From Leptospiraceae bacterium (GTDB lineage: Bacteria; Spirochaetota; Leptospiria; Leptospirales; Leptospiraceae): DNA of 34,204 bases. Both the position numbers and the translations under genes were made by a program. A model generated the notes under the pieces. The model saw only the letters and a list, made by a program, of their open reading frames with translations, was not told the origin of the DNA and did no database searches. Below are positions 30,724 through 34,204 of this stretch, one piece after another (position 1 is the first letter of the stretch; each line of letters begins with the position of its first letter). The stretch is from contig CANGZW010000032.1 in the NCBI GenBank assembly GCA_947458405.1, positions 1-34,204 on the forward strand, given 5' to 3'.

Positions 30724-33099
30724 ATGGTAAATTATTTATTAACCTTATTTTTATTTTTCTCGATTTCTCTGGGGGCACAGGATGTTCCGGGTAATTTCTC
30801 TACAGGATTAAAGGCGGATTCCTTTGAACTATTGAGTAGTATCAAAGAGGCAAATCCGAGGTATATAAAACACAGAGGACTCCCTTCGGAGGTTGATCTT
30901 TCTTCAAACATGCCCCCTATTGGAAATCAGGGAAGACAGGGTAGTTGTGTGGCATGGAGTACGGGCTATGCAAATAAATCGTATCACGAATATATTGAGA
31001 GAAAAGATAAAGAAAACTGGAAGTACATGATAAATGGACTCCCCAATTACAAAGTTTTATTCTCACCCGCATTTATATATAACCAGATAAATAATGGTAA
31101 GGATAATGGCTCTAGCATCAGTGATGCAATGTCCCTCATTGTATCGCGGGGAGCCCTTACCTTAGATCAGATGCCCTATGATGTAAATAATTTTACCCGC
31201 CAACCCACACCGGATCAATTTCAGGTAGCAAGTAAATTCAAAGCCAAAGAATTCCAAAAATTGAGATACAATGATCCCTCTGAAATAAAAGCCCAACTTT
31301 CTTCAGGGCGACCTGTTGTGGCAGGTATTTTAATAGATACTTCCTTTTATGAGTTAAAAGGAAAGACAATTTATAAAACCGCATCCGGACAAAGTCTCGG
31401 AGGACATGCGATTACTATTGTGGGTTACAATGATGATACGGGTGCCTTCAAGTTTCAAAATTCATGGGGAGTAGATTGGGGTGATAAGGGATTTGGCTAT
31501 ATAGATTACAAATACTTCAGTCGAGCCTGTAGATCCGCTTTTGTAATGGTTGATATCATTGATCCCAATATAGAGGTAACTAAAATAACTCCGAATGCGG
31601 AAAATACTCCCGAAGTAGCTACAATCGTAGATAATAGCATCAAACCCCCGCAGGAAGTCAATGCGAGCAAGGGGAATTATTCGGATAAGGTAGTATTGAG
31701 TTGGACTCCAGTACCAAATGCCATAGGGTATGAAGTTTACAGAGCCTATCCCGAAGAGGATGAATACGAACTCGTGGGACTCTCTGCCAACACGTATTTT
31801 GAGGATACGGGTATATTTCAGGATACAGCTTATAACTATAAAATCACTTCTGTTTCTGAGTTTGCCGTATCCGAGAAAAGCGAGGGAACCGCTACAGGTT
31901 TTGCTACAGTAACAAAGGTTTCCGTCCCTGTAAAGGTAAGTGGACTCAATGCCAGTGTGGGGCTTTACTCTGATAGAATTGTCCTGAATTGGCAGACAAT
32001 AGATAATGCAAACGGATATATAGTATATAAATATGACTCTAATGCTAGAACTTATCGTATTACAGGTAAAATACAAACTAATCAGTTTGAAGATAAAAAT
32101 GCAAGAAAAAATGGTATAGCAGAAATTTATACAATTTTAGCCTATAATAATGCAGGAAATGGAGATCCTTCCAATGCTACCATAGGACGTACATCTGTAG
32201 TACAAAAACCATCTGCTCCTAGAGATTTAGTAGCCAGTATGGGGCAGTTCAGAGATAAGGTTGACCTACAATGGAGAAAAGCTAATGGAGCTAATGAATA
32301 TGTAGTACTTAAATATGAAAAATTTGCATGGAATCCAATTGGTACTACGGATAAAGATAGTTTTACAGATACTAATGTATCCCGTGGTAGAAAATACTAC
32401 ACAGTAATTTCTAAAACTAAGGATAATATATATGGATCTTACTCTAATTATGCGATGGGTTATGTTGATACAAACTTAGCAAGGGGAAGTTCTAAATTAC
32501 CAACCCCTCAAAACTTAAGTGCAAAATTAGACTTAAATTCCAAGGAAGTATTACTCTCATGGGATAAAGTAAATGGTGCAGATGAGTATAATTTGTGGTA
32601 CAAAAAGCCAGGAGCAAACAAATGGAATTTTATGGACAAAGTCATAGGTGAAAAATCTTCCATGATGGTTAATCTACCCGAAAAAAATACTTTTTACCTA
32701 TTTTCAGTGACCAGTAAATCGCAGATGGGTGGCGACAGTGAATTTGCAAAGGCGGTATCCACAGTAGATTCCATCCCCCGAAAAGCCACTGCCAGAAGAT
32801 CTTTCTTAGCAGTCAATAAACTTGACCAAATTTCGGGAACATGGTCAGCTTTGCAGTGGGATGGTAATACAGGAGTTAAAAATATAGTGATGGAAATCGA
32901 AGCAGTAGATAGTTCTCATGTTACAATTAAGATAGACAATAAAAAAACCTACACCGCAAAATATATCCAACAATCCCCTGAAATTGATTTTGAGGGGAAA
33001 GTAAAAATTAAGCTAAATGCGGATGACTCTTTGATGGTAGAATTAAAAGACTCCTCTGTAATCAAAGAAAAAGCGGAATTGAGTTTTTTGAGAGATTAA
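30724..33099 (+). CDS. Exported papain-fold (C1A) cysteine protease with four Fn3 domains
   Basis: 791 residues: a signal peptide (1-19), then a C1A peptidase domain (about 55-280). PPIGNQGRQGSCVAWS carries the catalytic Cys75, GGHAITIVGYND the His228, and QNSWGVDWGDKGFGYI the Asn246, so the triad is complete. Four fibronectin type III modules follow (about 308-396, 397-492, 493-583, 590-690), each with a P-x-x-V/L...SDKVVLSW-type strand, then a C-terminal domain (about 691-791; SFLAVNKLDQISGTWSALQW) of unknown type. No obvious propeptide of C1A length is present between the signal and the catalytic domain. Likely secreted or surface-held; substrates are unknown. AAAGGA lies 7 bases before the ATG. 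Confidence 0.9.
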   Translation: MVNYLLTLFLFFSISLGAQDVPGNFSTGLKADSFELLSSIKEANPRYIKHRGLPSEVDLSSNMPPIGNQGRQGSCVAWSTGYANKSYHEYIERKDKENWKYMINGLPNYKVLFSPAFIYNQINNGKDNGSSISDAMSLIVSRGALTLDQMPYDVNNFTRQPTPDQFQVASKFKAKEFQKLRYNDPSEIKAQLSSGRPVVAGILIDTSFYELKGKTIYKTASGQSLGGHAITIVGYNDDTGAFKFQNSWGVDWGDKGFGYIDYKYFSRACRSAFVMVDIIDPNIEVTKITPNAENTPEVATIVDNSIKPPQEVNASKGNYSDKVVLSWTPVPNAIGYEVYRAYPEEDEYELVGLSANTYFEDTGIFQDTAYNYKITSVSEFAVSEKSEGTATGFATVTKVSVPVKVSGLNASVGLYSDRIVLNWQTIDNANGYIVYKYDSNARTYRITGKIQTNQFEDKNARKNGIAEIYTILAYNNAGNGDPSNATIGRTSVVQKPSAPRDLVASMGQFRDKVDLQWRKANGANEYVVLKYEKFAWNPIGTTDKDSFTDTNVSRGRKYYTVISKTKDNIYGSYSNYAMGYVDTNLARGSSKLPTPQNLSAKLDLNSKEVLLSWDKVNGADEYNLWYKKPGANKWNFMDKVIGEKSSMMVNLPEKNTFYLFSVTSKSQMGGDSEFAKAVSTVDSIPRKATARRSFLAVNKLDQISGTWSALQWDGNTGVKNIVMEIEAVDSSHVTIKIDNKKTYTAKYIQQSPEIDFEGKVKIKLNADDSLMVELKDSSVIKEKAELSFLRD

Positions 33100-33126
33100 A
33101 TTCATGAAGGCTTAAGGGGTTTAACA

Positions 33127-33774
33127 ATGCCCGACTACCATGATATTTTCTAGAAATTACTCTTTCTAAGAATAGACTGTGTTATAGAATTTTTTAGATT
33201 TCTTCTGAAAGAGAAATCGAAACTGCTGGAGTTAGAGTATATAGGTATCATTCAGGATATCTACTATCGAAAAAAGAAATTACTGTATGACATTCTCTAT
33301 GAAATTCCCATTCGGAATTCTGATGAGAAACTGTATTTTCTCTTAGAACACAAGTCAAGAAGAGCCATTGATTTTCAGATACAGATGATCAAGTACAAAC
33401 ACGCCATTCACAAGTGGCAAAAGAAAGAGTTTGGTAAGATGTCATCTATTATTCCCGTCTTGTTTTACCAGGGGCTCGACAATTGGGATCCTGAGAGTGA
33501 ACTAGATGAAATCAGAAGGCTCTCAAATCCGATTCTTTCGAGAAATAGGGAAGAGTTTTTGGTCTTTGATCTTCGAAAAATAGACCCAGTAAGGAATTTT
33601 GAGAGTCTTGAATTAAGGGCGGGAATCCTGCTCTTAAAAATCATTAGAGTTCCCTGGGATGAATTTATAGAAGGTTGGGGTAAAATCAAGGAAATCTTAA
33701 ATTCTATGGAAGAAGCAAAAAGAATTGTGGTTCGGCAGGCTCACCAACCGGGCTTGATAGTTTATAGGGTATAA
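33127..33774 (+). pseudogene. Rpn-family (transposase_31) PD-(D/E)XK nuclease gene with in-frame amber codon
   Basis: One continuous frame from the ATG at 33127 (AAGGGG 7 bases upstream) encodes MPDYHDIF, then TAG at 33151-33153 (codon 9), then a normal Rpn catalytic region: CVIEFFRFLL, DILYEIPIRNSDEKLYFLLE and EHKSRRAIDFQIQMIKYKHA, with Asp55 and Glu74-x-Lys76 in the nuclease motif. The only interruption is the amber codon; a single change from TAT/TAC would give HDIFYKLL. No ATG, GTG or TTG follows in frame until 33385 (after the nuclease motif). The C-terminus ends abnormally in RIVVRQAHQPGLIVYRV, where a repeat-derived segment has been added. Rpn proteins are DNA nucleases linked to recombination and anti-phage defence. 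Probably inactive unless the stop is read through. Confidence 0.75.
33728..33746. repeat. Short dispersed repeat, copy A
   Basis: TGGTTCGGCAGGCTCACCA, related to the copy at 34033-34052 (shared TGGTTCG, then GCTCAC). It gives the coding signature VVRQAHQP when read on the plus strand and VGEPAEP on the minus strand, typical of small palindromic repeats scattered in many genomes. A bulged hairpin (GGTT-GG with CC-AACC) can form. Confidence 0.55.
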
Positions 33775-33800
33775 ATTTATTTGGTGTTGAGGAGACGATT

Positions 33801-33971
33801 ATGGGAAAACAAAAAACTTTAACCTTGTATGAAAGGGCTTTGGAAGAAGGTGAATTTAAAAACAAGTTGGAAACTGCTCGAAAAATGCGGGATGAAGGAT
33901 TTAATCCAGTGCAAATTATCCGAATCACAGATCTTTCGGAAGTTCAGCTTAGAGAGAATGGGATTTTGTAG
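33801..33971 (+). CDS. Rpn C-terminal tail-like small protein (56 aa)
   Basis: A 56-codon ORF, MGKQKTLTLYERALEEGEF ... KLETARKMRDEGFNPVQIIR ... LSEVQLRENGIL, stop TAG at 33969-33971. GAGGAG lies 6 bases before the ATG, one of the best ribosome binding sites in the window. The (G)KLETARKM..EGF...I...T.LS pattern is the helical C-terminal tail common to Rpn nucleases. It lies in a different frame from the nuclease gene and 26 bases beyond its stop, so it cannot be translated as a continuous product. In E. coli, short C-terminal Rpn products made from internal starts act as antitoxins to the full nuclease; this could be a free-standing equivalent, or simply the severed end of a decayed gene. Confidence 0.6.
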   Translation: MGKQKTLTLYERALEEGEFKNKLETARKMRDEGFNPVQIIRITDLSEVQLRENGIL

Positions 33972-34009
33972 TGTAGTACCTCACCCCCACTATACAGAAT
34001 TGTACTACA
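33972..34009. other. Inverted repeat following the small Rpn tail ORF
   Basis: TGTAGTAC (33972-33979) and GTACTACA (34002-34009) form an 8-base-arm dyad with a 22-base loop directly after the stop of the small ORF. There is no following T-tract, so it is not a typical intrinsic terminator. It uses the heptamer that recurs across the window. Confidence 0.45.
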
Positions 34010-34032
34010 TTTCAGCATACACCGCCTCTCCA

Positions 34033-34052
34033 TGGTTCGTCTACGCTCACTA
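34033..34052. repeat. Short dispersed repeat, copy B
   Basis: TGGTTCGTCTACGCTCACTA, sharing TGGTTCG and GCTCAC with copy A at 33728-33746. It lies in the spacer between the small Rpn tail ORF and the gene start at 34187. The rest of the spacer (34053-34186) shows only a short GTATC-TGA-GATAC palindrome and no gene. Confidence 0.45.
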
Positions 34053-34186
34053 CAAGTCCCGTATCTGAGATACAAAAGAGAGGGGTTACTTTATAGTTAC
34101 CAGTATTTGTTTACCAACAATTAAACACTAAACATAAGTTTATTTATCTTGCCCTTTTTTCTCTAAAAAATAAAGCTATCCCTATT

Positions 34187-34204
34187 ATGCCATCTTCTCA
34201 CGAC
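34187..34204 (+). CDS. First codons of a possible second Rpn-family gene (cut by window edge)
   Basis: ATG at 34187 begins M-P-S-S-H-D up to the last base of the window. The Rpn pseudogene 1 kb upstream begins M-P-D-Y-H-D, and an M-P-x-x-H-D start is typical of this nuclease family. Only six codons are visible and no clear SD sequence precedes the ATG, so this is a prediction from pattern match alone. Confidence 0.4.

Follow-up and report, generated by a model that had tools for sequence, protein, structure and literature searches.

The closest described counterparts of the locus analyzed here are the Rpn systems (PF04754/TIGR01784), among them Escherichia coli RpnA. Genes of this type normally encode a full-length nuclease, RpnL, together with its C-terminal domain, RpnS, which is produced from an internal start (Zhong et al. 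2023, PMC10327210). In the portion of that study drawn on here, RpnS is described as an antitoxin that binds and blocks RpnL, with a specificity for its own RpnL that is set by the number of four-residue repeats; RpnL is toxic without RpnS, and stand-alone RpnS genes are present in some strains. Further literature on RpnS beyond this study was not found, which is no proof of its absence. The window, meaning the whole stretch of DNA that was analyzed, is 34,204 nucleotides long and constitutes contig C32 (CANGZW010000032.1) of a draft Leptospiraceae genome (GCA_947458405.1; 3.94 Mb, 198 contigs, estimated to be 96.5% complete). It likely carries an rpn toxin-antitoxin gene in decay, which would have been split by a REP-bearing block and then had its nuclease half killed at codon 9 (Table 1).

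The locus had been described in an earlier note as an Rpn nuclease gene intact except for this amber codon. Its account of the frame holds, with the TAG being the one internal stop, as does its claim that the nuclease motif is kept: Asp55, Glu74 and Lys76 are present and are invariant in six paralogues, and the window's nuclease half thus retains the PD-(D/E)xK residues. The sequence after the stop also matches PF04754 (E = 2.9e-18; 66.6 bits against a curated cut-off of 21). However, the gene is not otherwise intact: the family leader is absent, a 60-base block splits the gene and the C-terminal domain lies in another frame. Measured against unsplit paralogues from the same genome, leader loss and the REP-bearing block stand beside the TAG, contradicting the premise of a single lesion. 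An uninterrupted RpnL frame from nuclease to C-terminal domain is lacking, being broken by the TAG, by the TAA at 33772–33774 and by the change of frame. There is no in-frame ATG, GTG or TTG between codons 10 and 87, so re-initiation at such codons cannot give the Asp55–Lys76 core, and ordinary re-initiation was ruled out as a way of restoring it. The window gene is therefore a broken member of the Rpn nucleases, not a working one. In PADLOC, the nuclease part gave one weak match to Cas6b (E = 0.0015), taken as chance, and the other three proteins gave no match.

Table 1. Features of the split rpn locus (coordinates in the window).
Feature	Position	Strand	Basis or remark
Nuclease half of split rpn gene (PF04754)	33127..33774	+	TAG at codon 9; last codons from the REP-bearing block
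In-frame amber codon (codon 9)	33151..33153	+	Same column in paralogues is a conserved sense codon
60-base block replacing 61 coding bases of unsplit C12	33727..33786	+	Brings TAA 33772–33774; alignment, counted by eye
REP-like imperfect palindrome, 21 bases, GGTTCGGCAGGCTCACCAACC	33729..33749	+	Genome repeat count
Shine-Dalgarno-like GAGGAG	33789..33794	+	Spaced 6 bases from the small ORF; unsplit paralogues have it ahead of their internal ATG
Intact 56-codon ORF with RpnS (antitoxin) domain, ends in TAG	33801..33971	+	Sequence matches, predicted fold
Start of second rpn gene, six codons MPSSHD, cut by contig end	34187..34204	+	Gene order as in C41

The genome contains 22 PF04754 matches, which span every stage of decay. 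There are fragments such as C15, C60, C148 and C180, and a further rpn gene, C181, has a stop inside its RpnS region. Nine copies form a close subfamily (C12, C17, C41, C44, C70a, C70b, C115, C142 and the window copy, C32), with 48–88% amino acid identity to the window. Of these, C12 (285 aa), C70b (288 aa), C44 (292 aa) and C142 (290 aa, of which 288 follow the aligned start) are unsplit and full-length. The other five are split: C17 and C41 keep an intact nuclease frame of 215 codons each, and the nuclease is broken by the amber codon in C32, by a frameshift in C70a and by a missing 5' part in C115. The RpnS ORF is intact in all five split copies, which is compatible with selection for the antitoxin, though three broken cases prove nothing and the stop in C181 speaks against lesions sparing RpnS as a rule. 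C41 carries a second rpn gene in tandem (C41:9473-10036; L028:2584-3150; 188 aa), in which much of the nuclease domain is missing in frame and the C-terminal RpnS part is present. A search of this genome (G000) with the RpnS domain returned 50 rows with E ≤ 1, located on PF04754 genes, PDDEXK_2 genes and short ORFs; the lowest-ranked few of these rows are doubtful. Rpn-type genes are strongly expanded in this genome, where the rpn family is multiplying, recombining and decaying.

The split lies just before the C-terminal domain, between nuclease and RpnS. Replacement of 61 coding bases by 60 shifts the frame and brings the early end at the TAA. The same block is found in C17, C41, C70a and C115 besides the window, i.e. 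in five of the nine close paralogues, and in each case starts with the palindrome or a one-base variant of it. Across the genome, the palindrome occurs at 11 places with ≤3 mismatches against none for the reversed control; it is thus repeated beyond chance, though five places share the ancestry of one gene family. At ≤2 mismatches, eight of nine places are in or beside Rpn-type genes. It also adjoins PDDEXK_2-type nuclease genes at C85:2012-2032, C85:3244-3264 and C144:7609-7629 (L040, L041 and L042); the C85 nuclease gene matches PF12784 and has the palindrome on both sides in the same orientation, inside a longer shared flank. REP elements are short palindromes associated with RAYT proteins. 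A single weak match to Y1_Tnp in the genome (C83:5882-6046, L075; E = 9.9e-5; 24.1 bits versus 23) offers a candidate partner for these palindromes. At the split, RNA structure was unremarkable (z = 0.76), and promoter-like sites were near chance (five versus 3.7 expected). Two terminator-like sites were detected against 0.8 expected, one of them overlapping the palindrome.

Downstream of the block, the small ORF lies in a different frame from the nuclease half, and its product shares 70% identity with the C-terminal end of the unsplit C12 protein. It matches the end of the TIGR01784 model (positions 231–272 of 273; E = 4e-6). In a sequence search, the crystallized C-terminal chain of E. coli RpnA (7th0_A) appeared in the third row (E = 0.013), below two IcmE/DotG matches over 27 residues. 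Single-sequence AlphaFold2 predicted three helices, with a mean pLDDT of 84 for the best model and 82, 63, 58 and 55 for the others. The best fold match in the PDB by Foldseek was E. coli RpnA-S (7TH0), with a TM-score of 0.73 by query and 0.88 by target, an rmsd of 0.9 and a probability of 1.00; the Foldseek E of 0.15 is weak, in line with expectation for such a short protein. In sequence and predicted fold, the product matches RpnS, the antitoxin domain of Rpn nucleases. A PDB sequence search with the unsplit C12 protein gave no match.

RpnS in the window has its own predicted start and ribosome-binding site, and an internal ATG behind GAGGAG, GAGGAA or AGGAGG is present in all nine subfamily copies, split or unsplit. 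The length of RpnS varies among copies by multiples of four residues: relative to the shortest, there are no extra units in C32 and C70a, one in C12, C41 and C115, and two in C17, C142 and C70b. The dN/dS of RpnS pairs is below 0.5 in 26 of 28 comparisons, the exceptions being one undefined pair and C32–C12, at 1.16 over 56 codons. C12 is the nearest copy by silent changes, and this pair speaks against constraint on the window RpnS rather than for it.

The 5' end of the window copy departs from that of the family. A leader with ACATATA and TAGGAG(G) is common to the six copies with readable 5' ends (C17, C12, C41, C70a, C142 and C70b), and C44, the most distant copy, has a different one. The window copy is without the family leader and its start codon lies 27 bases beyond the end of an unrelated protease gene; its ribosome-binding site is consequently AAGGGG in place of TAGGAG(G), so the site called intact in the earlier note is not the family's. 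The gene directly upstream (30724–33099) encodes a protease of the papain family that also has fibronectin type III domains. The end of that gene is conserved in two other genomes of the family, G005 and G006, where no rpn gene comes next and no PF04754 match is present. Together with the missing leader, this gene order suggests that the window rpn gene is probably a newcomer to this site.

Relatives beyond this genome are distant. When a 1405-base region of the locus was compared with 41 genomes, four matched, including its own, and the others only in short pieces: two of the three lay in the upstream protease gene, and the third covered 44 bases of the rpn part. This search yielded no sister-strain locus, and the order of events is therefore read from the paralogues alone. 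The C17 protein had no relative among genome contigs, and a search of genome contigs with alignment A2 found eight distant relatives at 22–35% identity. No relative was found among viral contigs. Matches were obtained in 100 of 72,556 plasmid records, all Leptospira (the 20 listed being ~29–30% identical), and in two of 50,697 phage records, both Leptospira; the best named plasmid and phage relatives are ~28–30% identical.

PF04754 matches are present in 70 of 296 genomes surveyed across the phylum. Several of those listed carry a single in-frame stop (e.g. G002:C28 and G166:C94), which makes an isolated stop no rarity among rpn genes. In itself, the amber codon is of minor importance, being what a decaying rpn gene ordinarily looks like. 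Eight regions with short frames or stops were picked by eye from the listed matches; five were translated, and three ran into contig ends. In one, from a different genome of the same taxonomic order (G018:C4, L174), a stop and extra bases lie between nuclease and RpnS, and the small part, which stays in frame, has an ATG of its own; this may be an independent split at the same junction. In two further genomes (L168, G014:C1:2130200-2132200, and L171, G193:C88), a frameshift ends the nuclease close to the junction, and RpnS continues in another frame. The rpn gene of G214 has a different layout, and that of G166:C94 is interrupted by a TAG within the nuclease and keeps its C-terminus in frame.

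Among the explanations offered in the earlier note, recent inactivation finds support in a deficit of replacements relative to neutral expectation and in the absence of a second nuclease stop after codon 9. Beyond that codon, the window's own branch, resolved against C12 and C17, carries approximately 12 silent and 13 replacement changes (12/16 for the C12 branch and 31/19 for the C17 branch), figures blurred by gene conversion. Under a neutral model that gives transitions twice the weight, the chance of at most 13 replacements among 25 changes is P = 0.006, so much of the branch was constrained and the stop probably arose late on it; the missing second stop alone is a weak signal (P = 0.26). 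Pairwise dN/dS in the nuclease part after the stop is 0.26 against C12 and 0.13 against C17, again approximate owing to gene conversion.

The window copy is also a mosaic. It differs from C17 at 116 of 842 aligned bases, but at only one of the 169 bases at 33673–33841 that span the split, a near-identity reached in none of 5000 shuffles. Upstream of this segment, C12 is the closest copy over a large share of the nuclease part, and from 33960 onwards the sequence resembles C41, not C17 or C12 (51, 50, 51 and 45 of 60 bases in successive segments). Such a pattern is what gene conversion among paralogues would leave, with chimaeric assembly of repeats as the alternative. Several split copies have diverged widely in the nuclease part, where dS is close to 1 or higher.

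The assembly of short reads from similar paralogues could in principle produce this mosaic identity to C17 and C12, and even the TAG. The draft consists of many contigs and the window contig ends inside a repeated rpn gene, as would suit a sequencing or assembly artefact. Such an artefact is nevertheless very unlikely, given that the split block is found in five separate contigs with different flanks and that the nuclease part of the window differs by ~10% from its nearest copy. Read-through or recoding of the amber codon, yielding some full nuclease half, would be helped by a frame that is otherwise open for 206 codons past the stop. However, none of the 36 tRNA genes in this draft genome (96.5% complete), all of which were run through ARAGORN, has a CUA anticodon, and TAG is an ordinary stop that ends six of the 27 listed window genes, RpnS included. 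This earlier suggestion is thus not borne out and seems extremely improbable. Just as improbable is phase-variable, reversible silencing of the nuclease, for which the support is the earlier note's suggestion itself. The TAG amounts to a single substitution, inspection by eye showed neither a homopolymer nor a tandem repeat there, and a repeat scan of 33000–34204 found no switchable repeat or invertible segment at the codon, only a 12-base overlapping palindrome at 33151–33153. That there is selective pressure to silence a toxic nuclease is plausible, survival of the antitoxin half being compatible with such pressure and with chance.

The best reading is that the death of the nuclease half in a split rpn gene is ordinary, fairly recent decay in a family of fast turnover. 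The sequences show that a REP-bearing block replaced the nuclease–RpnS linker in the group of five paralogues, which ends the nuclease frame and leaves RpnS as a stand-alone ORF behind its native ribosome-binding site. In the window copy, a later substitution at codon 9 would then have made the nuclease unmakeable, given a stop that neither downstream starts nor a suppressor tRNA can bypass, and RpnS is probably still translated. Whether RpnS matters once the nuclease is lost can be read in several ways. Both halves may be functionless, with the small ORF surviving through little time and a small target; this is a serious contender, if somewhat short of probable. The range of decay among the 22 matches, from the fragments to the stop in C181, accords with it, and as RpnS is about one-fifth of the gene, three nuclease lesions with none in RpnS are unremarkable (rough estimate ~0.5). 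Less easily accommodated is the retention of the small ORF's ribosome-binding site and start in all five split copies, several of them far apart (dS ~1 or more). It is rather unlikely, but conceivable, that the split lets RpnS persist without its toxin and protect against other Rpn nucleases, resident or incoming. In C32, C70a and C115, the three split copies whose nuclease is broken, the small ORF is intact behind a strong ribosome-binding site, and both stand-alone RpnS genes and the toxicity of unaccompanied RpnL are on record in the sections of Zhong et al. (2023) considered here. The same sections, however, tie RpnS to its own RpnL through the repeat number, and the window RpnS has no extra unit against one in unsplit C12 and two in C142 and C70b, so no matching full-length partner is seen among these three. 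A distinctly improbable extension is that the REP-bearing split is an antitoxin-only allele spreading among rpn paralogues by gene conversion, with the nuclease dying and the orphan RpnS neutralizing incoming related Rpn nucleases. If true, such an allele would break the obligatory toxin-antitoxin co-evolution thought to be imposed by the overlapping gene, Rpn systems being known as genes within genes whose toxin and antitoxin cannot evolve apart. With five of nine close copies cut and the antitoxin kept in all five, the subfamily amounts to a natural experiment on the worth of RpnS alone. The cut between toxin and antitoxin, common to these five copies, is the part that deserves a second look; the stop is ordinary.

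In its components, the window locus resembles E. coli RpnA and other Rpn systems, having a PF04754 nuclease domain with the D and E-x-K residues and a C-terminal domain with an internal start, a ribosome-binding site and four-residue length steps in the first helix; the predicted fold of its RpnS is like that of E. coli RpnA-S (7TH0). It departs from them in encoding nuclease and RpnS as two ORFs, each in its own frame, with a REP-bearing block between, and in having an amber codon and no family leader in the nuclease half. The palindrome is like REP elements in being a 21-base, imperfect sequence present at several genome places, but unlike them in its low number (11 places at ≤3 mismatches), in the association of most places with Rpn-type genes and in the weakness of the one Y1 match. 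Having RpnS as its own gene beside an rpn gene recalls E. coli RpnE-S/ypaA and RpnC-S, which, in the part of the study drawn on here, are extra copies beside a full-length rpn gene (Zhong et al. 2023, PMC10327210). In the window, by contrast, the cut runs through the gene itself, leaving it without an RpnS-bearing nuclease.
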